A stretch of 64,000 nt of DNA, from positions 250,001-314,000 of IMG/VR virus record IMGVR_UViG_3300019776_000324. One strand, given 5' to 3'. The notes under the pieces were generated by a model. It was not told the DNA's origin. It ran no database searches and was given only the letters and a program-made list of their open reading frames with translations. The stretch is from a virus. A program made the translations under genes and the position numbers. How positions within the stretch are numbered: position 1 is the stretch's first letter; every line of letters begins with the position of its first letter. This document shows positions 6,147 to 37,378 of this stretch, one piece after another.

Positions 6147-6175
6147 TTGACTTTTAGATGGATGTGCTGTACAAT
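6147..6175 (+). promoter_or_regulatory. Sigma70-type promoter, TTGACT-17-TACAAT
   Basis: -35 TTGACT at 6147-6152, 17-bp spacer, -10 TACAAT at 6170-6175. The ATG at 6182 is 6 nt beyond the -10, so the predicted transcript starts at or next to the start codon (leaderless). An earlier in-frame ATG at 6158 lies inside the promoter and would not be transcribed from it. Confidence 0.7.
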
Positions 6176-6181
6176 TACAGT

Positions 6182-6406
6182 ATGGAACATCCATTAATAC
6201 CCAATCTTGACAGTTTAACTGAACAAGAACTACTTGATAAAATTTCAGAACTAAATCGAAAACTTAGTATTGCCTACGGAACTGGCAATGCTTATCTTTG
6301 CAATCAACTAAGAATGGCTATTGAAAGTTTTCAAACCAAATATCGAGAAAAGATCCGTGGTGGCGACAATGGCAATAACTTTGATGATGTGATTGATATT
6401 TCATGA
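6182..6406 (+). CDS. Small helical protein, unknown function
   Basis: 74 aa from the ATG at 6182, beginning MEHPLIPNL. Helix-forming composition (LTEQELLDKISELNRKL, residues about 13-29), with a charged C-terminus ending in an acidic run. The ATG at 6158 would add 8 residues but sits between the -35 and -10 boxes of the promoter, so 6182 is preferred. The stop overlaps the next start (ATGA). I do not recognise the family; it is the first gene of a short operon with the next two. Confidence 0.6.
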   Translation: MEHPLIPNLDSLTEQELLDKISELNRKLSIAYGTGNAYLCNQLRMAIESFQTKYREKIRGGDNGNNFDDVIDIS

Positions 6407-7005: not shown

Positions 7006-7504
7006 GTTTGGCGAAATGATTTTTAATGAATCAGATGTGTGTGACTTAGTCATGCAGGGCCAAGCTGAATCGTTGCATAGAATGGTAGTAGATAAATCTG
7101 TTAATTTAGAAACGGCTGCATTGGTTTTAGAAAATATTCCAGAGTTTTTAGATTACAACGAATTATCACAACTGTCAGTTGAAGAATTTGATCATCTTAA
7201 TCAAAGCAATTGGCACATGCCAACCAAGTATAAAGAATTAGATATTGCAGAATATGTGTTGGGCTTATGTACAACAGAGGCAGAATTACAAAGATGCGGA
7301 GAAGAATTACTATTGTACCAAGAAAAAGATTTGTTTAATCTATTACGATATTTAAAATATCTAGTAGATGTTATGACTGAAAATAATCTTATTTGGGGTG
7401 TAGGAAGAGGATCTAGTGTAGCTAGTTATATCTTGTATAAATTAGGTGTGCATCGAATCGATAGCATGTTCTATAAATTAGATATACACGAATTTCTCCG
7501 TTAA
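6992..7504 (+). CDS. Orphan fragment resembling bacterial DNA polymerase III alpha subunit
   Basis: 170 aa from the ATG at 6992, inside the end of the previous gene; an in-frame TTG at 6971 is less likely. The last about 35 residues contain WGVGRGSSVASYILYKLGVH followed by IDSMFYKLDIHEFLR. This parallels the GxGRGSxxxSLVAYxLGITxxDPL..LLFERFL block of C-family polymerases (DnaE/PolC). The preceding helical segment (EELLLYQEKDLFNLLRYLKYLVD) resembles the region just before it in DnaE. The catalytic aspartates, PHP domain and fingers are absent, so it cannot be a polymerase alone. It may bind primer ends or interfere with the host replicase; that is inference. Confidence 0.6.
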   Translation: MIQNKFGEMIFNESDVCDLVMQGQAESLHRMVVDKSVNLETAALVLENIPEFLDYNELSQLSVEEFDHLNQSNWHMPTKYKELDIAEYVLGLCTTEAELQRCGEELLLYQEKDLFNLLRYLKYLVDVMTENNLIWGVGRGSSVASYILYKLGVHRIDSMFYKLDIHEFLR

Positions 7505-7507
7505 ATA
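7501..7507 (+). promoter_or_regulatory. Possible T4-type late promoter (TTAAATA) with a 26-nt leader
   Basis: TTAAATA overlaps the upstream stop. The following 26 nt contain AAGGAA as a ribosome binding site before the ATG at 7534. Weaker match than the TATAAATA, CTAAATA and CATAAATA sites elsewhere in the window. Confidence 0.4.
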
Positions 7508-7533
7508 TACAAACAAATTTAAGGAACAACAAA

Positions 7534-8019
7534 ATGACTAGTAAAGTTTACAAAACAGCGCAAGGTAAAACAGTTGATTTGGGCACTATCATGCTACAAA
7601 ACGAACATGTACGAGCAGTTGGCAACATGAATGTCAATGCCCGCGGCGATCAACTTGACAGCAACAATCGAGTAATTGAAACTAAGAATCGTCAAATACA
7701 AAGACAAAATTCTCGTACAACTACTCCTGCAACAACTGTAGCTGAAGTTCATACTAGTACAGGTAAAGCCAAGCGAGCACAACAGCAAGCATTGTTGCAA
7801 GCACAGGAAGCACAAAATAATGTTGAAGAGTCAGTAGATGATACTGAGTTGGAAGATGTTACAACTGTTGATGAAGCCACAGACGCTGACACAGAAGTAT
7901 CAGCCACTGGCGGCGGACTTGCTGCGGCAATTGCTAGATCAAAAATTGTCAAGCAAGAAAAAGAAAAAACACTTAGAGAACTTGCAAGAGAAGCCAACCC
8001 TGGAGTTAGAAGAATATAA
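7534..8019 (+). CDS. Unknown hydrophilic, probably partly disordered protein
   Basis: 161 aa. Residues about 1-60 are rich in Asn/Gln/Arg. Residues about 75-125 form an Ala/Gln/Glu/Asp-rich linker, acidic after residue 95. The C-terminal 30 residues are basic and helical (ARSKIVKQEKEKTLRELAREA). RBS TTAAGGAAC lies 8 nt upstream. The composition suits a virion-assembly or scaffold-like protein, but no family is recognised. The stop overlaps the ATG of the GroES-like gene (TAATG). Confidence 0.55.
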   Translation: MTSKVYKTAQGKTVDLGTIMLQNEHVRAVGNMNVNARGDQLDSNNRVIETKNRQIQRQNSRTTTPATTVAEVHTSTGKAKRAQQQALLQAQEAQNNVEESVDDTELEDVTTVDEATDADTEVSATGGGLAAAIARSKIVKQEKEKTLRELAREANPGVRRI

Positions 8020-8411
8020 TGAAACCAGCATTTTCACCACATCAAATTAAACAGTCAGATTTACGAGCATTAAAAAAGGATGTACTTGTGACTGATATGA
8101 GTTTTGATCATCGTATAACACAAGGCGGCCTGATACTGCTCAATGACAACGGTACTAGCTTGGGTATTCGTCCTCGCTGGGGTCGCGTTTACGCTATAGG
8201 ATCTGACCAAAAGGATGTGCATGTAGGGCAATGGATCTGTGTAGCACATGGTCGTTGGACTCGCGGAATCGACATTGAAGACGAATCTGGTAAACGCACT
8301 CTTCGTAAAATTGATCCTAAAGATATTTTATTAATCTCTGACTCAGCAGAAATGCCACAGGACGATAGTATGAGTACTGCTGTTCATGTGTCTAAACAAA
8401 CCAAAGAGTAA
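8019..8411 (+). CDS. GroES-like co-chaperonin
   Basis: 130 aa. Residues about 20-105 follow the Cpn10 fold order: KKDVLVTDM (first strand), then a mobile-loop-like segment SFDHRITQGGLILLNDNG, then RPRWGRVYAIG and VGQWICVAHGRWTRGI, then DPKDILLISD. The phage equivalent in T4 is gp31, which replaces GroES on host GroEL to fold the capsid protein; that role is inferred here. N- and C-terminal extensions are phage-specific. Starts at a TAATG overlap. Confidence 0.75.
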   Translation: MKPAFSPHQIKQSDLRALKKDVLVTDMSFDHRITQGGLILLNDNGTSLGIRPRWGRVYAIGSDQKDVHVGQWICVAHGRWTRGIDIEDESGKRTLRKIDPKDILLISDSAEMPQDDSMSTAVHVSKQTKE

Positions 8412-8572
8412 TGAAAACAAACAAGACTGATTGCAAAACTTGCGGTAAACCATATTCGCCCATGTGCGACTACATGCAAGGTCGTTGTCCGCATCATCCA
8501 TCAATGATTAATACCTTGCAATTTAAAACAAGGCTAACAAATTTAATTAACTTTTTAACAGGAAAAAAATAA
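8411..8572 (+). CDS. Small zinc-ribbon-like protein, 53 aa
   Basis: Starts at a TAATG overlap with the co-chaperonin stop. Residues about 7-31 contain CKTCGKPYSPMC and CPHH, a CxxC...C...CxHH arrangement that could bind one zinc. The C-terminal third is basic and hydrophobic. Function unknown; plausible small regulatory or structural metal-binding protein. Confidence 0.6.
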   Translation: MKTNKTDCKTCGKPYSPMCDYMQGRCPHHPSMINTLQFKTRLTNLINFLTGKK

Positions 8573-8573
8573 C

Positions 8574-8762
8574 ATGGCACTAACTAAACCAAAAAAATCA
8601 CAATTAGAACATCCGGATCCAAAATTGCATCGCAATATTAGTTTTGTTAAAAGTGGATTCCGTATTGTTGCTGGTGCACTACTTTGCACAGGCCAATTGT
8701 TTGCCGCTGGTGCTTTCCTAATTCTAGCAGAAGCATTGGGCGTTGTTGAGGAACTAGTATGA
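8574..8762 (+). CDS. Small membrane protein, 62 aa
   Basis: Basic N-terminus (about 20 residues) followed by one or two hydrophobic helices (residues about 28-58, GFRIVAGALLCTGQLFAAG then AFLILAEALGVV). RBS AGGAAAAA is just upstream. Ends in an ATGA overlap with the next gene. Function unknown. Confidence 0.6.
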   Translation: MALTKPKKSQLEHPDPKLHRNISFVKSGFRIVAGALLCTGQLFAAGAFLILAEALGVVEELV

Positions 8763-8974
8763 AAAAGTTAATTCACCAAGTCGATGAACAAAGCGGATCG
8801 GTATATCAACTGTGGGCAGAACTTACTGAATGCATGCGTCCAGAAGGCTACAAGAGTTTGAAATTTACCAGCACATACACAGGTAGCAAAGAGCCAGAGA
8901 AGCCTTGGAACAAGGGTGAATTCTTTTTGCCGCCAGAAGCCCTACAAAATCTCAAAGATCTTTTGGATGCCTAA
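8759..8974 (+). CDS. Unknown small protein, 71 aa
   Basis: ATGA overlap upstream and TAATG overlap downstream show that it belongs to the coupled run of small genes ahead of the clamp loader. Soluble, no recognised motif. Confidence 0.5.
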   Translation: MKKLIHQVDEQSGSVYQLWAELTECMRPEGYKSLKFTSTYTGSKEPEKPWNKGEFFLPPEALQNLKDLLDA

Positions 8975-9117
8975 TGACTCCGAAGTGGTTGCAAAAGTTA
9001 CGCGACCAGCGTAAAATCAAAGAACAAGAAGAATTAATCAAGGCGCTAAAACGCCCTGAGAATGAACCACGCCGTAGACCGGCAGCTAAATTTTCAAATA
9101 ATATGGGACCGAAATGA
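8974..9117 (+). CDS. Small basic protein, 47 aa
   Basis: Starts TAATG, ends ATGA into the clamp-loader gene. Very Arg/Lys/Glu-rich helix (residues about 5-35) and a basic tail (RRRPAAK). Could be a small nucleic-acid or protein binder; no family recognised. Confidence 0.5.
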   Translation: MTPKWLQKLRDQRKIKEQEELIKALKRPENEPRRRPAAKFSNNMGPK

Positions 9118-10034
9118 AACAACTTTGGGTAGAAAAGTATAGACCAACTACAGTAGATGGTTATGTGTTTGTTGATGATAATCAACGAAAGCAAGTACAA
9201 GCATGGATTAAAGATGGAACTATTCCGCAATTATTGTTTAGCGGAAGTCCGGGCACAGGTAAAACTACCTTGGCTAAAATGTTAATCAACGAACTCAAGG
9301 TTGATGAATATGATGTTATGTATGTTAACGGATCCAAGGAAGGTCGTAAGATTGAGTGGGTTACTAAATTAGAATCGTTTTGTCAAACCATGCCTTATGG
9401 CACATTTAAGGTTGTATTGATCGACGAAGCAGACTACATGAATCAGCAGTCAGTACAGCCAGCACTTCGTAACTTGATGGAAGACTACAGTGAAACAGTT
9501 AGATTTATTTTGACTTGTAACTATCCTAACAAGATTATTCCACCGCTACATTCAAGGCTACAACAGTTTCATATTCTTAAAACTGATCATACAGAGTTTA
9601 CGGCTAGAGTGGCCACAGTGTTGGTTGAAGAAGGTGTTGAATTTGATATTGACACCCTAGACAGTTATGTTCGCGCTACCTATCCAGACTTGCGCAAGTG
9701 TTTAAATCTTGTACAACAAAACAGCATCAGCGGATCGTTAAATGCGCCTAGCAGTGCAGATAAGAGTGTAGGTGACTGGAAGTTGGACTGTGTAGAATTA
9801 TTCAAGCATGGCAAGATTCGCGAAGCTCGTACATTGTTGTGTCAACAAAGCACACCAGAAGAAGCTGATGAAATCTTCCGTTGGATGTATGACAACTTAG
9901 ACTTGTGGTCAACTGATCCGCACAAGCAAGATCAAGCTATTGTTATTATTCGCAATGGATTAGTTAATATTCCATTGGTAGCAGATCAAGAAATTAACTT
10001 GTCAGCAACTATTACAGAACTATGTCAACTATAA
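9114..10034 (+). CDS. 44: Clamp-loader ATPase (T4 gp44-like)
   Basis: 306 aa AAA+ ATPase, close to the size of T4 gp44. It opens with LWVEKYRPTTVDGYV, typical of RFC/gp44. Walker A GSPGTGKTT lies at residues about 43-51, Walker B VVLIDEADYM near 101-110, sensor 1 LTCNYPNKI near 140, and an SRLQ motif (SRC-like arginine finger) near 155. It loads the sliding clamp (gene at 43729) on primer-template junctions. A gp62-like small subunit is not seen nearby. Coupled by ATGA to the preceding small gene. Confidence 0.88.
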   Translation: MKQLWVEKYRPTTVDGYVFVDDNQRKQVQAWIKDGTIPQLLFSGSPGTGKTTLAKMLINELKVDEYDVMYVNGSKEGRKIEWVTKLESFCQTMPYGTFKVVLIDEADYMNQQSVQPALRNLMEDYSETVRFILTCNYPNKIIPPLHSRLQQFHILKTDHTEFTARVATVLVEEGVEFDIDTLDSYVRATYPDLRKCLNLVQQNSISGSLNAPSSADKSVGDWKLDCVELFKHGKIREARTLLCQQSTPEEADEIFRWMYDNLDLWSTDPHKQDQAIVIIRNGLVNIPLVADQEINLSATITELCQL

Positions 10035-11195
10035 ATGGATCGAGACTATTATTGCTCGATGAAATTCAAGTATCTTAAAGTAGATCTTGAATCAAATCTA
10101 ACTTATTGTTGCCATGCTGCTACACCGCATGCCATTGACAAACAGTGGCTAAAGGAAAATCCAGGGCAACTGTTTAATACACCATTGATACACAAAGAGC
10201 GTACAATGATGTTGAATAACCAGCGTAATAGTAGTTGCGAGCAAAATTGTTGGCCTGCCGAAGACAAAGGCGCTACTAGTCCTAGAATATATCAACACGG
10301 TATTGAAAAGACGCACACTGATATCAATGTACAGCCAGAAGAAATTGAATTTACAGTAACCAGCGAATGTAATTTAACTTGCTCGTATTGCTGTAAAGAA
10401 TACAGTACAGCTTGGAAACGAGATTTACTGGACAACGGCGATTACGGGCTTGATGACAACAGATATAAACTCATTGACAAAGATAAAATATTATACCGGT
10501 TATCACAAAACGAAAAAATAAATTCAAAACAGTATCAAACTTTACTCAATGAAGTTAGTCTTATTACAGATGCTAATGTTAGAGAATTTACAATTACCGG
10601 TGGTGAACCGTTTTTAAATAACCAGCTAATGTCAGTGGTTGAGCTGGCTCGATCATGTGGTAAACTTATAATCTATACTGGACTTGGTATAGCTAACACA
10701 CGATTTGAAAAGATTCTGGAGCAGTTAAAAGACTATCCTAACTTGGAATTGCGCATCAGTGCAGAAAACATTGGAAAAAAATTAGAGTTTAATCGATACG
10801 GCATCAATTCAGATGAGTTCTTACACAAGGTTGAACTTATAAAACAGTCGGGCATTAAGCATGTATTTCACCTGACTCTAACAAACTTAACAATATTCGG
10901 ACTGGCAGAATTTTATGAAAAATTTGCAGGCACCAAGTTACTGATCACTTATGCATATCAACCCGAGTTCATGGCAATCAATGTACTTGACAATGCAAGC
11001 AAGCAACAGTTACTAAAAGAGCTAGTTGCACTTCCAGAATTACACTATAATAGGATCACGCAATCAATTGCAGAGACTCCAACTGATCAACAACGAGCTG
11101 ACTTAAAAATGTTCATCAACAAATTTGCCTCTAGACGAAATTTAGATTTAAATATCTACCCAACTAACTTTATTAACTGGATTAACCAACAATGA
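10035..11195 (+). CDS. Radical SAM protein with extra cysteine clusters
   Basis: 386 aa, adjoining the clamp-loader stop without a gap. The radical SAM Cx3Cx2C motif is CNLTCSYC at residues about 112-119, followed by the glycine-rich ITGGEP near 184. An N-terminal block has further cysteines (YCCHAAT near 25; CEQNCW near 72), suggesting an auxiliary iron-sulfur site placed before the radical SAM core rather than after it. The substrate is unknown; peptide or protein modification is plausible because SPASM/twitch-type enzymes often act on peptides. A second such protein is at 38936. Confidence 0.75.
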   Translation: MDRDYYCSMKFKYLKVDLESNLTYCCHAATPHAIDKQWLKENPGQLFNTPLIHKERTMMLNNQRNSSCEQNCWPAEDKGATSPRIYQHGIEKTHTDINVQPEEIEFTVTSECNLTCSYCCKEYSTAWKRDLLDNGDYGLDDNRYKLIDKDKILYRLSQNEKINSKQYQTLLNEVSLITDANVREFTITGGEPFLNNQLMSVVELARSCGKLIIYTGLGIANTRFEKILEQLKDYPNLELRISAENIGKKLEFNRYGINSDEFLHKVELIKQSGIKHVFHLTLTNLTIFGLAEFYEKFAGTKLLITYAYQPEFMAINVLDNASKQQLLKELVALPELHYNRITQSIAETPTDQQRADLKMFINKFASRRNLDLNIYPTNFINWINQQ

Positions 11196-24649: not shown

Positions 24650-27600
24650 ATGAACATTCTTGAATTAGATTCCTATAATCTTGCTGACGCAGTTAAATTT
24701 AATAAAACATTAAATCCTAAAATCTGGGCTGGCGAAACAATGCGCCCCGAAGTTAGAGAAAAGCTATTAGCTATTGCTGAGGATTTTAAAGAATTTCTAG
24801 GCTTAAGTGACATTGAAGTCAAAGACATTACAGTGTCTGGCAGTAATGCCAACTACAGCTATACACCATACAGTGATATTGACTTGCATTTGGTAGTTGA
24901 TATTCCCCGTGCAGACAATGATGAAGTTTATCGTGAATTGTTTGATGCTAAAAAATATCAATACAACGATTTACATGATTACAAAATTGGCGGTTACGAT
25001 GTTGAGTTGTATGTAGAAAACGCAAACGAACCTCCTGTTTCTAAAGGTGTATACTCTATATTAAACAGCGACTGGATAAATATTCCTCGCAAGATTCGCA
25101 GTGAAGTCAACGACAATGCAGTTCGTAGCAAGTACGAAGATCTAAAACACCGTATTGACAATGCCATTGCTAGTGATGATTCTCAAGTGATTGATCGCTT
25201 GGCCAAGAAAATTAAAGATCTGCGTCAAGCAGGACTAGATGCACATGGCGAACTAGGAGCAGAAAATCTTGCTTATAAAATGTTACGCACACAGGGCAAG
25301 ATTAAAGAATTATACGATGCTCGTAATGCAGCCAAAGATCAAGAATTAAGTTTAAAAGAACGAGCACCAAAAGAAAAATTCACTTATGGATTTAAAGAAG
25401 ATGTTGGTATGAGCTGGGACGGAGTTAGTCCTACAACCAAAATGTTCTTGAGTGAAGAACCACCCGAACTCACAGACGAAGAAGTACTACGAGATTTTAT
25501 TAAATTCTGCGTTCAAGAATTAAAAATTGAAGCATTACCCAAAGTCAAGTTGCGCAGAGATCCACAGTGGAGTGTGCGTAACAAAACATTTGGTCGTTAT
25601 ATCAACGACATTCATACCTTGGAAGTGGCATTTGGTCAACGACACATCATGGATGTGCTCCGTACAGTGGCACACGAATTAACACACAAACATCAACACG
25701 AGCGTGACGGTGCCAAGATGGGTGCAGATGCAGGTGAAACTGGCAGTCCATGGGAAAATGAAGCCAATGCCCGTGCTGGTATTCTAATGCGTGACTATGG
25801 TCGACTACATCCAGAATTGTTTGATAGTAGCCAAACTGAATTGGGCGAAAGTGCCAGCGGTTATATTCCTACTAAGAAACAGGCCAACGATCCTCGTTTC
25901 AAAATGGCACTTACCAAAGATATTCGTCCGGGACAACTAGGCAAAGAAGCAAACAAATTAAAATTAAAGACAGACAGTCAGGGTCATCCACAAATAGCTA
26001 ACCCAAATGGCCTGTTTGAAAAACTAGCATTAGAATTAAATCAGTTCAAGCGCCGTGGTACTGTATTAGAGTCTGAGCAGTTGGATGAAGTTAGTATGCG
26101 TCCCAGCAGTCTTAAACAGTTTGCCAACAGCGAAGAAGCCAAGGGCATACAAGCTGGCTTTGAAGCAGAATTAATTTTCCGTGACACTACCAGCGATGAA
26201 AATGATGGCGAGGACATGGAACCTGACTATGACATGGACGAGCGTTGCCGTAGCATTAGTCAAGTTGTAGAGTTTTTCCAAGATGACGAATACGGATACG
26301 GATTAACTGAGCGTCAAGCTTCACGCTTACAAGACAGCTTGGACGAACAGTACATGGAGTGGTCAGACGAGCAAATGTACGACGCCTGGCGCGATGAGCG
26401 TGATGAATTGATTAAAGATGCGTGGTTGCGTGAAAAATCAATGGACGAGCGCATTCATGCTGCCCTAGTAGACGGATTAGATTTAACAGATGCGCAAGCC
26501 GATGCTGTTGTTAAACTGCACGATGATCGTGCCAGTGGCAAAATCAAAGGCAGTGAAATGAGCGATGAGCAGTTGGAGATGGCCAGCCAGTACAGCGAAG
26601 CTGTTTCCATTGCTGAAGATATTTTACAAGAAGATGTTGAACAAACCATAGAAAAAGAAGATGGTTTCTATGATGAAGTCTTAGATGATTTCCGCAGTAA
26701 TTTTTATGTTGATGATGATTCGGGCTTTTTTGATGATGTTGGCCTGCGCTGGATGAGTGATGTTGCTAACTCATATGACTTGGGTTGGCCTTATCTAACT
26801 GGCGGTGGCGGCAATGATGGCTCACGCAGTTGGGAAGAAATTGGCGATAGTTTACAACAAGCTGTTGATATGCCGGTTAAAGTAAGTAGCGGATATCACA
26901 GTGCTACACGCAAACCAGGTTTGTGGATTGTAGAACCAGACTCTAGTTTAGAACCAGATGATCGTGAAGATTATGGTTTAGAAATTGTAAGCCCTCCTAT
27001 GCCGTTGGAGCAGGCTTTAGAAAAATTAAAACAAGTTGCTGACTGGGCCAACCGCGAGGGTGATGCTTATACCAACAGTTCAACTGGCTTACATATGGGC
27101 GTAAGTGTACCTTACAAAGGTGGTGATGTTGACTACTTAAAGTTGATCCTGTTCCTAGGCGATGAGTATGTGTTAAAATCATTTGGTCGTCAAGCCAACA
27201 CCTATACCAAGAGTGCAATGAGCAAGTTTAAAGAAAACATCAAAGGTGGCCGTACTGATCCAATGAGCGTGATCAAACTCATGCAACACGGCCTGCTTGA
27301 GTTGGCACAGCGTGAAGTACAAAAAGGTGTTGGTGAAGGCAAGTATACCAGTGCTCACAAACAAAACAAATATATTGAATTCCGTAGTGCCGGAGGAGAT
27401 TGGTTAGCAGGTACCAATCCAATGCTAGGCGAAGCTGATGATGGATTTGTCGCTGGTAGTATGGACAAATTACAAAACACCATGATGCGCTATGCCTATG
27501 CCATGTATCTGGCAAGTCGTCCAGATCTTGAGCGCAGAGAATATGCTAAAAAGTTATACAAGCTAATTGCTCCCGAAGGCGATAGTCAACTGGCCCTGTT

Positions 27601-28849
27601 TAGTCAGTATGCTGCAGGCGAGCTCACAGCTGAGCAACTCAAAAAGCAATGGGCCGAAAAGACCATTGGCAAAGAAAAGAAAATGAACCAGCGTTGGAAA
27701 CTGTTCCAATTTGATAAAGTTGCTGACCAATGGTTGCCTGTCCCGGGTGCTGAGTGGAACGGTTACACTGAAGATCAAGTTAAAAATGCAGTATGGAGCA
27801 AGTATGGTCGCGAAGCATTAGACTCAGGTGAGTATGAATTACGCAACATGAGTGAAGATCAACAGTGGGAAGTCTACGATGTCAACACCGGTGATGTTCT
27901 TGAAATTGTTAAAGGCAAGAACAAAGGCGAAGTTGCTGACAAAGTGTACGACAAGTATAAGGATCAAGGAATAGGATTCAATGTTCGTCCGTATGAGGAT
28001 CCAACTACATTGACTCCTCGTGCCAAGTTAGCCAAGCGTATCGCTCAACCCAAGCAAGAACCTGACCAGACTGTAGATATGACGCCCGGTAATTGGGAAT
28101 TTTTCTACGAACCAACTGGACGAGTACTTGACGCAGTCTCTGGCGTTAGCACAACTCAAGCTAGAGCTGTGCTGGCTGATGTTCAACGCCGTTATAATGA
28201 TTTGGCCGCACCTAGTATTAAGATGCGTAAAACTGGTGAAGCCGCACCGGATGTAGCACAAAACTTTAGTCAAAATCCTAACCCAACAGCACCTATAGCC
28301 AATCAAGTGCGTATGCCTAACGGTGTGCCTGTTTGGGAATTGTTTGATATTGATACTGGCAGTGCCTTACATGCTATTGCTGATCATACTGGTCGCGAAG
28401 CATATACTCAAGGCATGGCATGGTTGCGCTCAGTTGGTGCTGAAAATCCAGAAACATACGGCGAGCGTTTTGCTATTCGTCCCAAGCGTTTACAACCAGG
28501 AGAACAAAATTTATCAGCTCCGCAAGATGCTACACAACGAGTAGGATCCTGGAGCATATATGATGTTACCTTAGGAAGAGAAATCAGTAGAATGGACGAT
28601 GTTTCGTTCGCACAGGCTGATGCTCGTGCTAATGAATTAGAGCGTAGCACTGGACATAACATGTCAGTTAGAGGTTTATCTGAGAACTTTGCCGATGGCA
28701 AGGGTCCCGGTCGCCCAGGAGATAGTCAGCGTCACGGAATACCTAAAGGTGCTACTATAGCTGAGTTAGAAAAAGCAGCTAAAGCACCAGGTCGTAAAGG
28801 ACAATTGGCCCGTTGGCAGTTAAATATGCGTAGAGGAAAGAAAAAATGA
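24650..28849 (+). CDS. Giant multidomain protein: nucleotidyltransferase, HExxH peptidase, amidoligase-like, C-terminal repeats
   Basis: 1399 aa. The ATG at 24650 is chosen because the longer frame begins with a TTG inside the terminator. Residues about 55-125: nucleotidyltransferase-type GSNANYSY...SDIDLHLVV. About 285-400: zinc-peptidase motif VAHELTHKHQHE (HExxH near 341). About 500-890: amidoligase-like, starting GFEAELIF, with YGLEIVSPPMPLEQAL and STGLHMGVSVP, and interrupted by a long acidic helical insert. About 1010-1350: five divergent W(E/K/S)(V/L/F/I)(Y/F) repeats. C-terminus GDSQRHGIPKG...RKGQLARWQLNM. First gene of the internal-protein cassette; probably a virion protein. Domain calls vary in strength; the amidoligase call is moderate. 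Confidence 0.65.
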   Translation: MNILELDSYNLADAVKFNKTLNPKIWAGETMRPEVREKLLAIAEDFKEFLGLSDIEVKDITVSGSNANYSYTPYSDIDLHLVVDIPRADNDEVYRELFDAKKYQYNDLHDYKIGGYDVELYVENANEPPVSKGVYSILNSDWINIPRKIRSEVNDNAVRSKYEDLKHRIDNAIASDDSQVIDRLAKKIKDLRQAGLDAHGELGAENLAYKMLRTQGKIKELYDARNAAKDQELSLKERAPKEKFTYGFKEDVGMSWDGVSPTTKMFLSEEPPELTDEEVLRDFIKFCVQELKIEALPKVKLRRDPQWSVRNKTFGRYINDIHTLEVAFGQRHIMDVLRTVAHELTHKHQHERDGAKMGADAGETGSPWENEANARAGILMRDYGRLHPELFDSSQTELGESASGYIPTKKQANDPRFKMALTKDIRPGQLGKEANKLKLKTDSQGHPQIANPNGLFEKLALELNQFKRRGTVLESEQLDEVSMRPSSLKQFANSEEAKGIQAGFEAELIFRDTTSDENDGEDMEPDYDMDERCRSISQVVEFFQDDEYGYGLTERQASRLQDSLDEQYMEWSDEQMYDAWRDERDELIKDAWLREKSMDERIHAALVDGLDLTDAQADAVVKLHDDRASGKIKGSEMSDEQLEMASQYSEAVSIAEDILQEDVEQTIEKEDGFYDEVLDDFRSNFYVDDDSGFFDDVGLRWMSDVANSYDLGWPYLTGGGGNDGSRSWEEIGDSLQQAVDMPVKVSSGYHSATRKPGLWIVEPDSSLEPDDREDYGLEIVSPPMPLEQALEKLKQVADWANREGDAYTNSSTGLHMGVSVPYKGGDVDYLKLILFLGDEYVLKSFGRQANTYTKSAMSKFKENIKGGRTDPMSVIKLMQHGLLELAQREVQKGVGEGKYTSAHKQNKYIEFRSAGGDWLAGTNPMLGEADDGFVAGSMDKLQNTMMRYAYAMYLASRPDLERREYAKKLYKLIAPEGDSQLALFSQYAAGELTAEQLKKQWAEKTIGKEKKMNQRWKLFQFDKVADQWLPVPGAEWNGYTEDQVKNAVWSKYGREALDSGEYELRNMSEDQQWEVYDVNTGDVLEIVKGKNKGEVADKVYDKYKDQGIGFNVRPYEDPTTLTPRAKLAKRIAQPKQEPDQTVDMTPGNWEFFYEPTGRVLDAVSGVSTTQARAVLADVQRRYNDLAAPSIKMRKTGEAAPDVAQNFSQNPNPTAPIANQVRMPNGVPVWELFDIDTGSALHAIADHTGREAYTQGMAWLRSVGAENPETYGERFAIRPKRLQPGEQNLSAPQDATQRVGSWSIYDVTLGREISRMDDVSFAQADARANELERSTGHNMSVRGLSENFADGKGPGRPGDSQRHGIPKGATIAELEKAAKAPGRKGQLARWQLNMRRGKKK

Positions 28850-29397
28850 GAGCTAGTGATTTTATAACAGAAGCAGTTAAACAACGCTTGGATCCCAAGT
28901 GCTGGAAGGGCAAGCACAAAGAAGGCACCAAAGTAAAAGGTGGTGTTAGAGTTAACAACTGTGTGCCCAACGAAAGTGTTGAACTAGATGAAGAATTTGA
29001 TCTTATCGAAAGCATTATTGAAACACTAGCTGAACGCAATCAAGTTGATGCTGAAGCTATCTGGGAAGATCTAGAGTCATTAACTGATGATGAGCTGTAT
29101 GTGTTTGCTACTACAACTCCAGTCATGGAAGATTGGCAAAAAGTCAATAAGAAGGACAAAACAGATGGCATGAGTACAAAAGCTGTTAAGGCCTATCGTC
29201 GTGAACATCCTGGTTCAAAGTTAAAGACTGCTGTGACTACCAAGCCCAGCAAGTTAAAGAAGGGTAGTAAAGCCAGCAAGCGTCGTAAGAGTTATTGCTC
29301 ACGCTCAAAGGGTCAAATGAAAATGCACAACATCAGCTGTGCGAAAACTCCAGATAAAGCTATCTGCAAAGCCCGCCGTCGTTGGAACTGTGAATGA
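28846..29397 (+). CDS. Basic Cys-containing protein with capsid-targeting-like N-terminus
   Basis: 183 aa, ATGA-coupled to the giant gene. MRASDFITEA resembles the T4 internal-protein leader (MKTYQEFIAEA), with a prohead-protease-type site ITE/A after residue 9. Then LDPKCWKGKHKEGTKVKGG..VNNCVP (residues about 14-42), an acidic middle (ELDEEFDLIE), and a strongly basic end with CSRSKG...SCAKTPDKAICKARRRWNC. The basic, Cys-patterned tail suggests DNA binding in the capsid; function otherwise unknown. Confidence 0.65.
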   Translation: MRASDFITEAVKQRLDPKCWKGKHKEGTKVKGGVRVNNCVPNESVELDEEFDLIESIIETLAERNQVDAEAIWEDLESLTDDELYVFATTTPVMEDWQKVNKKDKTDGMSTKAVKAYRREHPGSKLKTAVTTKPSKLKKGSKASKRRKSYCSRSKGQMKMHNISCAKTPDKAICKARRRWNCE

Positions 29398-31385
29398 GAT
29401 TTAAGGAATTTGTCACAGAATACAGCCAGCTAAAAACACAGCGGGCTCATCGTGATGGCTTAGATCTTGAGGTTCGTAGTAATGATGAAAATGTAAGCAT
29501 CTATGCTTATGCCAATGGTAAAGAACTTGCCCATGTGCATTTTGATCGAGTTGGTAACAATATTCTACCATATGATTTAGAAGTGGGCGAACACTATCGC
29601 GGTCAAGGTATTGCTAGTGTAATGTATGATTATGCCAAAGAGTTAGGCTATACAATAAAACGCAGTAGCGAGCAAACAGATGCAGGTCGTGCATTCTGGA
29701 ATAAGAATCGCGGTGAAGAAGGAAACATTTGGGAAGATAAAACACTAGATCCTGAGATCTATGGTGAGATGCTTCCCACCTCCACAGTCAAGCGCATTGT
29801 TACCAGTGTAATGAAACAAGTAGATCCTACAGCTAAAGTCACAGTTAAACAAAGTCCAGAAGGTTACTATAATGTTAATAGTGACAAACTTAGATTAGAC
29901 TTTGGTATCACTGCTGATGGTGGCGAGATCAATGCCAACATTGTTAATGCTTATAGTAGTTACAAGGGTGCTGGTGTTGTTACTAACATATTTGCTCAAT
30001 GCTTTAAGGCCGCAGAACAACTATGGGGCAAGCCCGCTAAGTTTGTTATGAGTGCTCACGAAGATCGTGGACACGGAGTATGGCAACACATAGCACAGAA
30101 ACTAGGTGCTGAGTGGCAAGGTAGCATAAGTGAAATAGCCCGCATACCAAATGATTACTATTCTGGAGGTAAAGAATCGTTACCCATTAACCCATCTGCT
30201 AGAAAATCCCAAATAAAACCGTTACCAGGTGGCAGTGGATTTGGATATTATACTCGCGAAGCGCCTGGTAGTATCATTATTTACATTGTGGATCCTAACA
30301 AGCCAGCTGAGCAACGAGATAATAAAAATGATATTATTGTAGCCATGTTAAGTTTAGATAAATGTCAATGGATTCCTGGTGCCTATACAGTTAATTCAGT
30401 CACTACAGACGAGGCGTATCGAGGTCGTGGACTTGGACATAGTTTGTATGGTATAGCATTATCAATCTTAGGTCTTACATTAGTTTCTGGAACCGAACAA
30501 ACATCTAGTGGTAGAAGTATGTGGAAAACAATAAGCAATTTTCCTGGAGTAGACATTAAAGGTTATACCAAAGCAACAGATAATCAAGCAAAACAACTAT
30601 TAAAACAAAATGGTGCTCAACCACTTACCGGAGACTATTGGACTTTTCCTATCAAACAAGGTAAACACGAACTTAAAAGCACCATACCGGATGTGCCAAC
30701 ATATCATACTCAATTTGCTAAAGATGTGCCGTACCACAAAATCTATAGAACTGGTCTAATTGCCAAGTGGAATCCAGGTCGAACTAATACTGTAAATGAA
30801 ATAGCCCGCATACCACAAAGCGAACTAGGTGACTGGGGAGAAGAAGGAACTATTGTTCCACCAGAACATCCAGTAGAAAAGAAGCCATTGCCTGGCGGCA
30901 GTAAGTTTACCTATGCTGTAGATAAAAACAGCCAGGGCAATCTAGAAATACTAATATTCGATGGCGAAAAGTTAGCTGCCGAATTAGACTTGTTTGAAAC
31001 AGGTGATGTGCTGAACACTTGGGGTGTAGAAACTATTGTAGTTGAACGCCCATATCGTGGACAGGGGTTGGGCAAAGCCTTATATGGTATTGCCTTAAGC
31101 ATACTAAAACTTACCATAGAAGCTGGCTCAACACAAACACGACATGGCCAACAGATGTGGTTAATGCTTAACAGTATTCCAGGAGTAGAAGTCAAAGGCT
31201 ACACTATGGTTCCTACTGCCAAGTATCAACCTAACAAGAATGATACCATTGTCAAGCAAGACAAAGACTGGACTCGTTATACATTCCCGGTTCATCCAGG
31301 AAAACAAAGTATGCGTAGTGGTCGCCCAGGTGCTGGACTTTATACTAGTCAAGCAACTATGATAGCTAAATGGACAGGTAAATGA
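29394..31385 (+). CDS. Tandem GNAT-acetyltransferase protein with capsid-targeting-like N-terminus
   Basis: 663 aa, ATGA-coupled. It begins MRFKEFVTEY. GNAT acetyl-CoA-loop motifs recur: YRGQGIASVMYDYA near 68, YRGRGLGHSLYGIA near 342, YRGQGLGKALYGIA near 553; a diverged copy seems to lie between residues 125 and 245. Linkers before the third and fourth domains repeat SEIARIP / NEIARIP and KPLPGGS(G/K)F. Acetyltransferases acting on host proteins or small molecules after injection are conceivable (inference). The last two domains are close duplicates (GIALSIL(G/K)LT). Confidence 0.7.
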   Translation: MRFKEFVTEYSQLKTQRAHRDGLDLEVRSNDENVSIYAYANGKELAHVHFDRVGNNILPYDLEVGEHYRGQGIASVMYDYAKELGYTIKRSSEQTDAGRAFWNKNRGEEGNIWEDKTLDPEIYGEMLPTSTVKRIVTSVMKQVDPTAKVTVKQSPEGYYNVNSDKLRLDFGITADGGEINANIVNAYSSYKGAGVVTNIFAQCFKAAEQLWGKPAKFVMSAHEDRGHGVWQHIAQKLGAEWQGSISEIARIPNDYYSGGKESLPINPSARKSQIKPLPGGSGFGYYTREAPGSIIIYIVDPNKPAEQRDNKNDIIVAMLSLDKCQWIPGAYTVNSVTTDEAYRGRGLGHSLYGIALSILGLTLVSGTEQTSSGRSMWKTISNFPGVDIKGYTKATDNQAKQLLKQNGAQPLTGDYWTFPIKQGKHELKSTIPDVPTYHTQFAKDVPYHKIYRTGLIAKWNPGRTNTVNEIARIPQSELGDWGEEGTIVPPEHPVEKKPLPGGSKFTYAVDKNSQGNLEILIFDGEKLAAELDLFETGDVLNTWGVETIVVERPYRGQGLGKALYGIALSILKLTIEAGSTQTRHGQQMWLMLNSIPGVEVKGYTMVPTAKYQPNKNDTIVKQDKDWTRYTFPVHPGKQSMRSGRPGAGLYTSQATMIAKWTGK

Positions 31386-32113
31386 CAACAGTTACCGGTG
31401 GCGTAGTAACAACTGATGGTGCATATACTGTACGCACTTTTGAAACCTCTGGCACATTAACTGTGTCTGGCGGAACATTAACTGATGTGCAATACTTGTT
31501 GATTGCTGGCGGCGGTCGTGCCGCAGTTCCAACTAGTTCCTATGTGGCCGGTGGAGGTGCTGGTGGTGCTCTAACAGGCAACATTACTCTTAATGCTGGT
31601 ACATATCCTGTAGTCATAGGTGAAGCTACAATAAGTAGTGCTTTTAATGATCTTGTAACTATACCCGGCGGCACAGGAGGATTTTATGGTAATGGATTCT
31701 CAGGTGGTTCAGGTGGTGGTGGTGGAGTAATAGGTGTTACTCATATAAATTTTCAGAACTTTGTTGCTGGCAATGGCACACCCGGACAAGGACATGCAGG
31801 GGGCAATCCCTATGGTGGTGGATATCCACCATTTGGCCCAGGTGGCGGTGGTGGTGCATCAGGACCCGGTGGACAAGGCAGTGCTGACGGAGTTGGTGGT
31901 GCAGGTGGCCCAGGCTTAGCCAGCGATATAACTGGTAATACTGTTTATTATGCAGGTGGCGGTGCTGGCAAAGGACCCAAAGGTATTGGGAATAATAGCC
32001 CCGGATACGACAACTACGGAGCTGGCGGTGGTTACTCAAGCACGGTAAATAATAACTACGGAGAGTTACTATCTCCACAACCCGGAGTGTTGATTTTAAG
32101 GTACCTAACATGA
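31382..32113 (+). CDS. Glycine-rich structural or adhesin-like protein
   Basis: 243 aa, ATGA-coupled. After a beta-rich N-terminus (VRTFETSGTLTVSGGTL, YLLIAGGG), residues about 55-230 are dominated by Gly with Ala/Ser/Pro (GGGAGG, GGGGGVIG), ending GVLILRYLT. This matches the glycine-rich domain proteins of phage tails and adhesins. Its place amid internal-protein genes is unexpected. Confidence 0.6.
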   Translation: MTTVTGGVVTTDGAYTVRTFETSGTLTVSGGTLTDVQYLLIAGGGRAAVPTSSYVAGGGAGGALTGNITLNAGTYPVVIGEATISSAFNDLVTIPGGTGGFYGNGFSGGSGGGGGVIGVTHINFQNFVAGNGTPGQGHAGGNPYGGGYPPFGPGGGGGASGPGGQGSADGVGGAGGPGLASDITGNTVYYAGGGAGKGPKGIGNNSPGYDNYGAGGGYSSTVNNNYGELLSPQPGVLILRYLT

Positions 32114-32322
32114 GATTTCAAGAAATAGTCGAAGCTAAAAACACAAATCCTATTGTAAATTACAATTTGTGGACAGCACAGGTACAGATCAAACAACCTA
32201 ACTATGTTGGCCGTATTGATGTTACTGTAACTGCTGCCAACGCACAAGATGCTCGCTTGTTAATGAAATCACAGTATGGTGTTGAATTTTGGCAAATTGG
32301 CAGTGTTAAACAAGTAAAATGA
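32110..32322 (+). CDS. Small protein with capsid-targeting-like N-terminus
   Basis: 70 aa, ATGA-coupled. MRFQEIVEA gives an IVE/A prohead-protease-type site at residues 6-9. The mature part would be a single alpha/beta domain (VTVTAANAQDARLLMKSQYG). Candidate internal head protein; activity unknown. Confidence 0.6.
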   Translation: MRFQEIVEAKNTNPIVNYNLWTAQVQIKQPNYVGRIDVTVTAANAQDARLLMKSQYGVEFWQIGSVKQVK

Positions 32323-32681
32323 GACTCAAAGAATTCGAACAAAAAGGCACTGATGCTGAACATGTGCTTGCTTATGTAAACAGCATACATCACGGCTTCA
32401 ATATTCCTGATACTATTTTAAATCACCCACAATGGCGCAAGACTCGTGTGCCACTAAACAAGCTACATATTCCCGACGAAGAAGGCGAAGACCTAGAAGA
32501 TCCGTACAATCGAGTACAGTGGATTGACTATGATCAAGTTAAAAGCGTTGATCGCCAATACATTGAAACACATCCTATTGTAGTAGACACCAATGGGCAT
32601 ATTATCGACGGTAATCACCGTGCTATAGCCGCTAAACTAGGCGGCATGTTTGACATTCCGGCATACATACCCACCAAATAA
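32319..32681 (+). CDS. ParB/Srx-like domain protein
   Basis: 120 aa, ATGA-coupled. Starts MRLKEFEQK, like its neighbours but without the Glu/Ala cleavage site. The block HPIVVDTNGHIIDGNHRAIAA (residues about 84-104) is the ParB-like nuclease motif (DGxHRxxA). The family includes nucleases and phosphotransfer enzymes; which applies here is unknown. Confidence 0.65.
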   Translation: MRLKEFEQKGTDAEHVLAYVNSIHHGFNIPDTILNHPQWRKTRVPLNKLHIPDEEGEDLEDPYNRVQWIDYDQVKSVDRQYIETHPIVVDTNGHIIDGNHRAIAAKLGGMFDIPAYIPTK

Positions 32682-32699: not shown

Positions 32700-32993
32700 A
32701 TGGATAAGAAATTTGTGCGAGTATTAGCTGATGTACATTGCGAATGGGAAGGCCTAGATCCTATCTATCGTTTGTATGTTAATGACGAACTATTTGCCGA
32801 GCGCACATGGACATGGGCCAGTGCTTATCTTGAAGAAAATCTACAAATTGAAGCTGAACCCGGCGAATATACTATACGCTACGAATTAGTACAGCCGCAT
32901 CTAGCTGAATTAAAAGTAGAAAATATCCGTGTTGATTTTGGACCCGGAGTTATAGAAAATAATGTACTAAGGATTACCAATGAGACTGTATGA
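32700..32993 (+). CDS. Unknown beta-sandwich-like protein, 97 aa
   Basis: Alternating pattern with RLYVNDELFAERTWTW (24-39) and PGEYTIRYELV (58-68). Looks like a small Ig-like virion protein. Its 3' end overlaps the next gene by 14 nt. Confidence 0.55.
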   Translation: MDKKFVRVLADVHCEWEGLDPIYRLYVNDELFAERTWTWASAYLEENLQIEAEPGEYTIRYELVQPHLAELKVENIRVDFGPGVIENNVLRITNETV

Positions 32994-33180
32994 ATTTGTT
33001 AACTTGACTGAAGAAGCAAGTGCTTGTAGCACCACAGCAGGCAGTATTGCTCCGGTAAGTTCACCCATTGGTGGAATGGTCGCAAGAAATGCAGGATCTT
33101 TCTTTGCTGGTAAATACACTACTGACGATGCAACGCCTAATACGCCTGCAGAGTACAAAAAGTATAAACGGAAGAAATAA
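32980..33180 (+). CDS. Small internal-head-protein candidate, 66 aa
   Basis: MRLYEFVNLTEEASACS: capsid-targeting-like leader with LTE/E or TEE/A as possible protease site. The remainder is Ala/Ser/Gly/Pro-rich (APVSSPIGGMVARNAGSFF) with a basic tail (YKKYKRKK). TAATG overlap with the Dps gene. Function unknown. Confidence 0.6.
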   Translation: MRLYEFVNLTEEASACSTTAGSIAPVSSPIGGMVARNAGSFFAGKYTTDDATPNTPAEYKKYKRKK

Positions 33181-34256: not shown

Positions 34257-36758
34257 ATGAATTTGTTAAACCTATTTGAAGGACGCGAACCGCATCAACA
34301 AGCTATTGACAAGCTGGAACAGGCTCGTATTGATCACTTAAAAGAAAAAATGGATTACTATGCTAAACACGGCATGGTAGAACAATTCAAAAAAGCCAAA
34401 GCTGAACACGACAGTTATTTTAAAGTTCAAGATGAGTGCATGGGATATGGTAGTGTTGTTGGCGAACAAGGCATTCCTGGTTCAGTACCAACAGAAAAGA
34501 TTCCTGGCAAAGAAGACTTACTCCGAGGCAAGGGTCGTAGCTACTACGAATCAGTCGAAGAAGTTAATCCAAGTAAAAAAGTATTCAAAGACAAAGCTGG
34601 TAAACCAGTAGGAGAGATTGGTATTGATCCTGAATCAAGTCCTGGCAATAGCGAATGGTATGTATATCATTACGGCACAGGTTATAGTGTTGTTGGATTC
34701 GATAGTGCCGCAGAAGCTAAACGCGAATTAATGTATGTTCACAAGCATCCAGAAGCGGTCGAAGGGCACGAATCAACATTTGACGAAGCTGGTATTCCTG
34801 GTAATGTTCCAGTTGAAAAGATTCCAGGTAAAGAAGATTTGCTAAAGGGCAAGGGTCGTAGCTACTACGAAGCCCAAGACCAAAAAAAAAATTCTGAAGA
34901 AGTAGATAAGCTACAAACAGCTGCAAGAGAGTTTATAGAATTAATAAACGATCGCACTGGTCCTATCTATAAAGCATATTATCGTAGTTTTCCAAAAGGT
35001 TCTGCACTAGAAGCAGAACTGCGTAAACGCATTGCCGCCAAGTATGGCGTTGCAGAAAAAGAACTTGCTAACGCCGAAGCTGGCGATCGTGCTCGTCGCA
35101 TGTTTGGTAATAAACTCAATGAAGATCAAAAGTTACATGTAGGTGATCCTATCATTGTTACAGCTCCTAATGAGTTTGAAGGCAAGACTGGTGAGATTGC
35201 AGAGTTCAGCCCAAGTGGCGCATTTGTTGTTGTAAACTTATACAACCACGGTGAACACAGCATGCACCTGAGTGATGTTGAGTTTAATCAATATGCCGCA
35301 GATCAAGAAGATGAAGATGACTGGTACGACGACGGTGCAGAAGATACATTAGAAGAAGAACAAAAAGAATTCCTGTACACAGTTGAATGCGATGGCTACA
35401 ACAAAGGTAACTTTGTTAATAAAAACGACGCAATCTTTAGTGCTCAGTACATGATCTACTATGGCGAAAAAGAATATAACAAGATTGAAGTTATTGAACT
35501 TAAAACAGGTGATGTAATCTGGGAATGGCATGGCAAGAAAGCAGACAACGATGTTGCTCCTACAGAAGTAGAAGTAGGTGAAGGTTGGAGCAACAAGATG
35601 GTTGCTCAAAGAACCGGTCAAGCTCCAACACCATATTCAGTTTATATCAAAGGTAAAGAATGGAAGAGCTTTGCTGACGATGATCATGCTGAAAATGTAG
35701 CTAACAAGTTAAGAGCTAAATTCAAAGCAGAAGGTAAAGATCCTAGTGTTATTACTATTGCACCTACTGACTACGATAAAGATCTTAAAGAATTCGCACC
35801 AGGTGGCGGATATCAAGAACCACCTCCACCAGTATTAAAGAAAAAAGATCCGTTTGATGACGATGATCGTAGTATCTATCCACGCAAGATTCAACAACTA
35901 TTAACCAGTGGTGCTAAAGTAGATAGCCGTGTTCCTGGTGCTATGGGACACATTATTGCAGCTAATGGCGAAATGATTAGAATGAAGCCATTGAACAAGC
36001 CATACAGCCAAAAGAAATATGCTTGGTATATTGATCAAGAGCGTGATGATAAACTTTTATTAAAGCAAGTTGAACCTAACCATTATGTATTGTATGATCG
36101 TGATTGGTTGCCACAAGGCACAACAGAGGCTGCTAATCCAGCACAACAGGCCGCTATTGCCGTTGCTATGAAGAAGGCTGGCAAGAAACCTAAGAGTGTT
36201 GATGAAGGTATCATGGATGTTGTTAAACAAACATTCAACGACAATGTAGTAGGTTGGCCAATGGGCACTTCTACTGAACAGTTTATACAAGGTTGGGCTA
36301 GAGATATTAAAAATCGCACAGGAAAAAATGTTCCAGTAGAAAAGTTAACACAGTTGTACAATAACTATGTTAAGCGTTCTGGTGAACTTATGCAATCACA
36401 TGGCACCACTAACGAAGCTGAAACAGATTATTCTAAGCGTCGCCAGCGTGAGCGTGATGTAGATGCAGGTAAGCCCGTAGCAAAACAGCGCCAACCCAAG
36501 ATGACTGATTATCAAAAGCGCCGTGCTCAGCAGAAGAAAGAAATGGAACTAGGCGAGGATCAAGACACTAGTGGTGTTGAGAGCGCAATTATTCGTCGTA
36601 TTATGGTAGCACACACAGACTTGTTACAACAGTTTGGCCCAGAAAAAGTCATGCAGGCCGCAGAAGAAGTTGCTTACAATGTAGGCGATGTTGACGAAAT
36701 TGGTACCAGTGATGTCAGTGCTTGGGTACACGAAGTCAAACAAATCCTTGGTGCCTAA
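34257..36758 (+). CDS. Large internal-virion-protein candidate with duplicated module
   Basis: 833 aa, RBS AAGGAAAAA. It begins MNLLNLFEG; LFE/G fits the T4 prohead protease consensus. A module of 27 residues starting GIPG(S/N)VP is present twice (bases about 34471-34551 and 34792-34872) and ends GKGRSYYE. The middle has an SH3/KOW-like strip (VGDPIIVTAPNEFEGKTGEIAEF, near 300). The C-terminal segments (IIRRIMVAHTDLLQQFGPEKVMQAAEEVAYNVGD) are helical. The DNA-binding or structural role is unknown. TAATG overlap with the deaminase gene. Confidence 0.55.
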   Translation: MNLLNLFEGREPHQQAIDKLEQARIDHLKEKMDYYAKHGMVEQFKKAKAEHDSYFKVQDECMGYGSVVGEQGIPGSVPTEKIPGKEDLLRGKGRSYYESVEEVNPSKKVFKDKAGKPVGEIGIDPESSPGNSEWYVYHYGTGYSVVGFDSAAEAKRELMYVHKHPEAVEGHESTFDEAGIPGNVPVEKIPGKEDLLKGKGRSYYEAQDQKKNSEEVDKLQTAAREFIELINDRTGPIYKAYYRSFPKGSALEAELRKRIAAKYGVAEKELANAEAGDRARRMFGNKLNEDQKLHVGDPIIVTAPNEFEGKTGEIAEFSPSGAFVVVNLYNHGEHSMHLSDVEFNQYAADQEDEDDWYDDGAEDTLEEEQKEFLYTVECDGYNKGNFVNKNDAIFSAQYMIYYGEKEYNKIEVIELKTGDVIWEWHGKKADNDVAPTEVEVGEGWSNKMVAQRTGQAPTPYSVYIKGKEWKSFADDDHAENVANKLRAKFKAEGKDPSVITIAPTDYDKDLKEFAPGGGYQEPPPPVLKKKDPFDDDDRSIYPRKIQQLLTSGAKVDSRVPGAMGHIIAANGEMIRMKPLNKPYSQKKYAWYIDQERDDKLLLKQVEPNHYVLYDRDWLPQGTTEAANPAQQAAIAVAMKKAGKKPKSVDEGIMDVVKQTFNDNVVGWPMGTSTEQFIQGWARDIKNRTGKNVPVEKLTQLYNNYVKRSGELMQSHGTTNEAETDYSKRRQRERDVDAGKPVAKQRQPKMTDYQKRRAQQKKEMELGEDQDTSGVESAIIRRIMVAHTDLLQQFGPEKVMQAAEEVAYNVGDVDEIGTSDVSAWVHEVKQILGA

Positions 36759-37378
36759 TGAGAGCAGAAGAGTTCACAGTTAGTCTAGACGAAAAATTAG
36801 ATGAAATTCTAGTTCGTCTCTGTGAACTTGTAGTTCAAGGTCAAAAAGAAAATCAAGACCTAGGCATGGTGGCTGCCGCTGTATTAGATCCCGATGATAA
36901 TTGTGTAACAGGTATTAACTATCCTGCACGAGATGGTAAGCGTGTTCATGCCGAGCGTGCCGCTATAAACAACTATATTGATCGTTTTGGCCCTGTTCCT
37001 CCTGGCAGTATTGTTATTACAACATTAAGTCCATGCAATCAAGATATGGATAGTCGAGCAGGAGAAAGTTGTCAAGCGTTATTAGATCAACACGGCATTG
37101 ATTCAGTTTACTGTGGTTATGTTGATCCTACACAAGATAAGCATCAAGTCGGCTTAACTGCTAATAAAAAAATACAAGCATTGTGTAAAGCATTCGCTGA
37201 CACTTTTCTTAAAGACAAACTAGACGAACTTGAATTTTTAGGTAGCCCTTGCACCAAAGACTGTTCAGGTCATCGTGCCGGATATGCATGGGCACAAAGC
37301 AAAGGCGGTCGTGTTGCTAACAGTCCATTTAGTCCTAGCTTTAATAACGGCAGTCAGCTTTATGTTGATGGTAAGTAA
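36758..37378 (+). CDS. Zinc deaminase-like protein with capsid-targeting-like start
   Basis: 206 aa; the TAATG junction fixes the start. MRAEEF opens like the neighbouring leaders. Deaminase motifs: VHAERAAIN (HAE, near residue 67) and SPCNQDMDSRAGESC, a PC-x11-C zinc site with an unusually long insert. The C-terminal 50 residues (SPCTKDCSGHRAGYAWAQ then SPSFNNGSQL) form a separate Cys/His motif of unknown purpose. Substrate may be a nucleotide, nucleic acid or other amine; the position suggests it might be injected. Confidence 0.65.
   Translation: MRAEEFTVSLDEKLDEILVRLCELVVQGQKENQDLGMVAAAVLDPDDNCVTGINYPARDGKRVHAERAAINNYIDRFGPVPPGSIVITTLSPCNQDMDSRAGESCQALLDQHGIDSVYCGYVDPTQDKHQVGLTANKKIQALCKAFADTFLKDKLDELEFLGSPCTKDCSGHRAGYAWAQSKGGRVANSPFSPSFNNGSQLYVDGK

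Follow-up and report, generated by a model that had tools for sequence, protein, structure and literature searches.

A jumbo-phage gene joining nucleotidyltransferase, zincin and amidoligase modules probably encodes a polyprotein of internal head proteins cut by a prohead protease

What does a phage make from a single gene that joins a nucleotidyltransferase, a metallopeptidase and an amidoligase: one large multi-enzyme, or several proteins released from a common chain? This question was raised by an intact open reading frame (ORF) at 24650–28849 on the plus strand of the window, a 64,000-nucleotide stretch of viral DNA (IMG/VR record IMGVR_UViG_3300019776_000324, positions 250,001 to 314,000) that belongs to a jumbo-phage record of 344,244 bases. 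The ORF list and the translation gave a product of 1399 amino acids (aa), to which an alternative TTG start would add 12 aa. A sequence-only reading had suggested a polyprotein cut in the prohead. Our comparisons indicated that the gene product is probably a modular chain of several internal head proteins, a polyprotein cut by the prohead protease. The polyprotein reading is well supported by comparison, namely by separate folds, conserved catalytic residues, the presence of the protease and the placement of its motif, and the ORF appears to be a complete polyprotein gene with 59 non-redundant fused relatives.

Domain structure and catalytic residues

From the N-terminus, the modules were arranged as a peptide MNILE, a nucleotidyltransferase, a disordered linker, a zincin, a module beginning with GYIP, an amidoligase, five repeats and a tail beginning with NFADG. 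AlphaFold2 predicted confident separate domains joined by linkers with a predicted local distance difference test score (pLDDT) below 50, and the overall predicted template modelling scores were low (0.39 and 0.45). The motifs on which the sequence-only reading had based its assignment of a nucleotidyltransferase, a HELTH metallopeptidase, an amidoligase-like region and five W-rich repeats to one chain were all present: GSNANYSYTPYSDIDL at residue 64, HELTH at 342–346, GFEAEL at 503, EIVSPP at 778, STGLHMGV at 811, and W-containing repeats beginning at residues 1015, 1071, 1147, 1227 and 1299. Structure prediction and fold search showed separate folds with the catalytic residues kept; a single structural unit, the outcome that the same reading had set against its proposal, did not appear.

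The pol-beta-type nucleotidyltransferase module (residues 6–237, 24665–25360; all features described here lie on the plus strand) matched NTP_transf_2 (PF01909) with 20.6 bits, slightly below the cut-off of 21, and both the fold and the GS..SDIDL triad agreed with this match. Fold comparison of this first domain led to the nucleotidyltransferases AAD(9), AadA and MNT, and the residues D76, D78 and E119 were invariant or nearly so in 40–41 aligned sequences, as were the catalytic-type residues of the next two enzymes. The zincin metallopeptidase module (residues 270–391, 25457–25822) was assigned from its conserved residues, model, fold and standalone versions, and this segment of the 1399-aa protein had no Pfam match. 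Its fold resembled the zincins Wss1, IrrE and selecase with Z values of 8–9, and the conserved set consisted of H342, E343, H346 and E369, i.e. HExxH with a downstream Glu. The amidoligase module (residues ~481–1008, 26090–27673) matched Amidoligase_2 (PF12224) with an E value of 5.9e-9 and 36.6 bits, above the cut-off of 22. Glutamine synthetases occurred all through its list of fold matches, with a Z value of 11.2 over 202 residues, and an E/T/H/R set of catalytic-type residues was conserved. In sequence searches against solved structures, the single protein gave no match and a profile of residues 1–480 gave no useful match. We infer the enzyme activities of all modules from these sequence and fold comparisons.

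The repeat region (residues 1015–1342, 27692–28675) was modelled by AlphaFold2 as five beta-beta-alpha-beta units. Two further modules had been missed by the sequence-only reading: the GYIPT...KTD module (residues 401–457, 25850–26020) and a separate basic NFADG tail (residues 1346–1399, 28685–28846), which was delimited by module comparison and occurs as a standalone gene at locus L008 and others among the loci of relatives. Neither module had a Pfam or PHROG match. An identity of the NFADG tail with DUF6321 (PF19846) was rejected, because there was no profile match at E values up to 1 and DUF6321 sits in the next gene.

Relatives and module shuffling

Loci of relatives were gathered by three scans of viral contigs. 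The nucleotidyltransferase and the zincin were fused in 59 non-redundant proteins, 47 of which also carried the amidoligase, and with this number of fused proteins the fusion is neither chance nor an assembly artefact. The modules of these relatives were shuffled, inserted or split, and because modules were inserted at joints (M48 peptidase, GH19 chitinase, cytidine deaminase, NT5C nucleotidase, ParB-like domains and others) the proteins ranged from 521 to 2082 aa. The same modules were separate genes in other phages. No near-identical phage record was found. Locus L031 had tandem amidoligase copies at 6001–9015 and 9029–10642, one fused and one starting with VRFREFIRE/SQELDE (a slash marks a cut or proposed cut), which is likely a recent duplication at the fusion joint. 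At locus L098, an insert between the zincin and the GYIP module (YLWHGSRNEIP...) appeared ADP-ribosyltransferase-like by eye and had no Pfam match at an E value of 0.01.

Prohead protease and the motif at the module joints

In phage T4, the prohead protease gp21 cuts after L/I-x-E (PMC9026906). The genome of the present phage encodes a T4 gp21-type S77 prohead protease (PF03420, E value 5.9e-24), whose gene lies around G000:C1:89271-89714 and whose His and Ser motifs are conserved. It also encodes a gp23-type capsid protein with YLKE/N near its start. The latter site (LAE/S in one case) was present near the N-terminus of the capsid protein in 7/7 phages. The S77 protease was encoded in all seven relatives' records of at least 290 kb and in one shorter record, and it was not found in six relatives' records of 194–262 kb, which may be fragments.

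Candidate sites of this type lay at the joints of the 1399-aa protein. The N-terminal peptide MNILE (24650–24664) is a proposed targeting peptide with the first cut after E5; the start MNILE/L resembled MELITE/L of T4 Alt, and E5 was nearly invariant (at least 90%). The nucleotidyltransferase ended with SLKE, a motif kept near that place in 38/39 relatives. The disordered linker that follows (residues 238–269, 25361–25456; pLDDT below 50) ended with the proposed cut site FLSE/, and among relatives this linker contained [LI]xE 3.9 times as often as shuffles of the same linkers (z 9.4), with control motifs at 0.6 ([LI]xD), 1.3 ([LI]E) and 1.2 ([LI]xxE). Behind the zincin, a linker (25823–25849) carried the proposed site TELGE/ (E400), which was kept in 32/37 relatives. 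The linker in front of the amidoligase (26021–26089) carried SEQLDE/ (E480), placed by comparison of amidoligase starts and by the N-terminus of a standalone amidoligase; true amidoligase starts had (QLD/DLF/similar)E/xxM in the listed cases. Relative to shuffles, [LI]xE was 1.65-fold in this linker and 0.39-fold inside the zincin. The last proposed site, LSE/ (E1345, 28676–28684), stood just before the tail. Motif count alone was rejected as proof of a cut because [LIV]xE also occurs within folded domains, at some conserved places.

The positions of the motif are stronger evidence than its enrichment. For the NFADG tail, [LIVM]xE immediately preceded the module in 28/28 upstream contexts without detectable similarity to each other, against a background of 1.7% per position. 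For the GYIP module it was directly in front in 13/15 unrelated contexts, and for the IARIP acetyltransferase module of a neighbouring gene in 8/8, including a standalone MKIME/IARIP. In standalone modules, the site closed a short N-terminal peptide, as in MRASEFVTE/NFADGK, MRYKQLLSE/QQLDE/IRMSPGS, MKSTEFLIE/SYEQ (a zincin) and the MKIME/IARIP start just named; standalone zincins with such targeting-like N-termini were found at L063 and L103. For comparison, T4 IPII and IPIII begin with MKTYQEFIAE. The NFADG joint thus reads GLSE/NFADGK in the polyprotein versus MRASEFVTE/NFADGK alone (L008 and others). These results strengthened the suggestion of prohead cutting made by the sequence-only reading: an S77 protease and a capsid protein are encoded, the motif precedes modules, and standalone counterparts exist.

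The same data bear on the possibility that the modules are freed by the embedded zincin acting on its own chain, either ahead of packaging or once injected, in line with the model published for polyvalent proteins (Iyer et al. 2017; PMC5512222). The zincin fold and the invariant H342, E343, H346 and E369 speak for such a reaction. However, the motif matches that of gp21, and the phage genome encodes a gp21 relative. Self-cutting is also made less likely by proteins that have no zincin and yet carry the motif before their modules (L054–L056, L058 and L077), and by small standalone genes in which the motif closes a targeting peptide of the T4 type. We consider self-cutting unlikely.

Export-signal-like segments in relatives

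Export signals were called with a simple rule based on hydrophobicity rather than with a dedicated predictor. This rule gave 25 internal segments resembling Sec, lipoprotein or twin-arginine translocation (Tat) signals, all in relatives and none in the window's own protein; 25/59 fused relatives had such a segment. No more than 15 aa separated the motif from the segment behind it in 23 of the 25 (often exactly E/GxKxK...), versus 22% of random windows. Examples were LDE/GRVANIAAAAAMAASLVGC at L042 and IEE/DLSRRGFLRGLGAAAAGAVGVGAAGPAQA in a neighbouring protein at L041. At L041 the signals lay at residue 353 of the ORF at 2708–5005 and, in the fused ORF near 6001–10404, at residue 509; further loci with internal signals included L042, L078, L027, L039 and others. 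Many of these segments are copies of one module, and the independent cases, counted by eye, number perhaps a dozen.

Since an export signal is useful only at an N-terminus, the internal signals argue for a cut, independently of which protease makes it, and their position behind the motif would make sense only if the chain were cut there. They bear directly on the possibility that the protein is packaged and injected whole, with domains acting as one chain and linkers that are merely flexible. The N4 virion RNA polymerase and the plasmid proteins ArdC and TraC1 do travel uncut (PMC5512222), and the domain arrangement itself needs no cutting. An uncut chain would leave the internal export signals without use, and the placement of sites at the joints, together with the match to standalone genes, also stands against it; we regard this possibility as improbable.

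Neighbouring genes and targeting-type N-termini

The sequence-only reading had placed the gene at the head of a presumed internal-protein operon, and the N-termini of the neighbouring genes supported this. T4-like targeting N-termini were present in 8/12 operon genes versus 1/64 genes elsewhere in the window (P 2e-7, for a pattern chosen after looking). In the loci of relatives there were 95 strict targeting-type N-termini versus 3–7 per shuffle anywhere, and every member of the strict set in the loci (97/97) had the same orientation as the query gene. A complete targeting peptide was embedded at the fusion joint of L031/L094 (VRFREFIRESQELDE; VRFREFIRESQELDEVKMSP), as it should be if fusion had joined genes that were once neighbours; it was the one clear case of such a fossil.

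The gene directly downstream (28846–29397) encodes a 183-aa basic protein with the N-terminus MRASDFITE/A and a DUF6321 C-terminus, and its tail was common to phrog_727 and other PHROGs. The next gene (29394–31385) had the N-terminus MRFKEFVTE/ and three acetyltransferase-like units with the inner sites SISE/IARIPN and TVNE/IARIPQ; its product looks like a second polyprotein, as units 2 and 3 start with IARIP right behind SISE and TVNE. Targeting-like N-termini were also found at 32110–32322 (MRFQEIVE/A), at 32319–32681 (MRLKEFEQ, in a ParB-like protein) and at 32980–33180 (MRLYEFVNLTE/E; compare T4 IPI). An 833-aa protein (34257–36758) began with MNLLNLFE/, and a cytidine deaminase-type gene (36758–37378) with the targeting-like MRAEEFTVSLDE/. 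In one relative a deaminase domain was fused into the polyprotein. In the cultured cyanophage S-SRM01, a neighbour had the targeting-like N-terminus MKNFHQFITEATS. The phage also carries a gene for the ribosomal protein bS21 (PF01165, E value 2.5e-18) outside the window, at G000:C1:183631-183789.

If the protein were instead an early-expressed cytoplasmic multi-enzyme that never enters the virion, the joint motif would be a matter of linker composition. The amidoligase and the nucleotidyltransferase also occur as standalone phage genes, and the virion role proposed here is read from sequence. However, composition-matched shuffles and control motifs failed to give the pattern, and the same operon has targeting-type N-termini, which share one strand throughout the loci; a cytoplasmic enzyme is thus very improbable. 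Separate products from internal translation starts, which might be imagined because GTG and TTG can initiate and the first motif position is often V or L, were rejected as practically negligible, since start codons there were no commoner than background (6/26, 8/30, 12/53 and 9/53 versus 30%) and Shine-Dalgarno-like sequences were rare.

Discussion

According to the polyprotein reading, MNILE would direct the entire chain to the core of the prohead. There the S77 protease would cleave the disordered linkers behind (L/I/V/M)xE and remove the targeting peptide. The products would be the nucleotidyltransferase, the zincin, the GYIP module, the amidoligase with its repeats, and the basic tail. These pieces would remain with the DNA and enter the next host by injection as early effectors, and the gain would be that many enzymes are co-packaged in equal numbers by one targeting peptide. 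In many relatives, an inserted module carries a putative export signal within the chain, where it would have no effect in the producing cell; only cutting would place it at an N-terminus. We infer cutting, packaging, injection, enzyme activities and signal unmasking alike from these comparisons. A wider proposal, to which we give an even chance, is that a large clade of T4-related jumbo phages delivers polyprotein effectors in which prohead cutting unmasks Sec, lipoprotein and Tat signals, so that modules may be sorted to the membrane, periplasm or cytoplasm of the new host.

Several points weigh against cutting by the prohead protease. The peptide MNILE differs from the standard MRxxEF targeting form, which the neighbouring genes have. 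In the linker between the zincin and the GYIP module, [LI]xE was only 1.22-fold, and the short motif also lay inside folded domains, where some sites were well conserved (IVE762, 36/40). To some extent, the motif at module starts may belong to the conserved beginning of each domain. The relatives share descent, so that z-scores and P values overstate the case, except where contexts were clustered (the NFADG and GYIP counts). Retention of the released pieces in the head is putative, and a search for a cultured phage with the fused protein found none.

If the polyprotein reading is right, chains of the polyvalent type would, judging from this family, be cut by the head protease rather than by themselves, and a single targeting peptide may be a way for jumbo phages to load many effectors. 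In addition, the virion may contain ready-made proteins with export signals that are first exposed in the head. With the rule that [LIVM]xE stands before each module, uncharacterised giant proteins of phages can be divided into units that lend themselves to testing; a set of cut sites has been defined and three recurrent modules without a known family have been named (GYIP, NFADG and W-repeat).

Comparison with known systems

As is proposed for the present protein, the T4 internal proteins IPI–IPIII and Alt have a short N-terminal targeting peptide that is cut by gp21 after L/I-x-E, and they are injected with the DNA; Alt is cleaved at both ends, at ITE-6 and LTE-619 (PMC5694885). Each of them is a single effector with its own gene, whereas here several enzymes would share a chain and a targeting peptide. 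Ejection proteins of the phiKZ-like phages (SPN3US and phiKZ) are giant-phage head proteins cut by a gp21 relative after x-x-E (PMC10052503), but those cuts remove and fragment propeptides, and in the available part of the source we did not find the release of several enzymes from one chain described. The Dar proteins of phage P1 (DarB and DdrB) are also very large, packaged in the head and injected; DarB has an N-terminal targeting sequence (PMC9024508) and DdrB is processed (PMC5512222). However, their function is anti-restriction, and the accessible parts of these sources did not describe a chain of modules with gp21-type joints. Phage proteins of Amidoligase_2 (PF12224), e.g. that of Agrobacterium phage Atu_ph07, have a homologous amidoligase with the glutamine synthetase fold, but from a standalone gene with neither nucleotidyltransferase nor zincin in the chain.

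The closest class is that of the polyvalent proteins (Iyer et al. 2017), injected multi-domain proteins for which the analogy with polyproteins has been drawn and self-cutting by the embedded zincin proposed (PMC5512222). They are very long phage proteins that join unrelated enzymes around a zincin hub and are predicted to be injected, and the class includes pol-beta nucleotidyltransferases, GNATs, ADP-ribosyltransferases (ARTs) and ParB-like domains (PMC5512222). The present protein likewise has at least two biochemically unrelated domains in one polypeptide, and a zincin with HExxH and a downstream Glu. The view of the sequence-only reading that the combination was unlike any phage protein was therefore only partly right, as multi-domain injected proteins had been described in 2017 (PMC5512222). 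A search for literature linking polyvalent-type proteins to prohead-protease sites at module joints found none, a weak negative confined to open-access papers, and open-access literature on PaBG and a survey of NAD/ADP-ribose held nothing relevant on polyproteins in jumbo phages. In the polyvalent class, the pol-beta nucleotidyltransferases are reported only from conjugative elements, the amidoligase is unmentioned and the proposed cutter is the embedded zincin, whereas the family of the window has the prohead-protease motif at its joints, standalone counterparts with targeting peptides and, in some relatives, apparently masked signals. The injected multi-domain kind of protein is thus already known, and what is new here is the prohead-protease layout together with the putative masked export signals.

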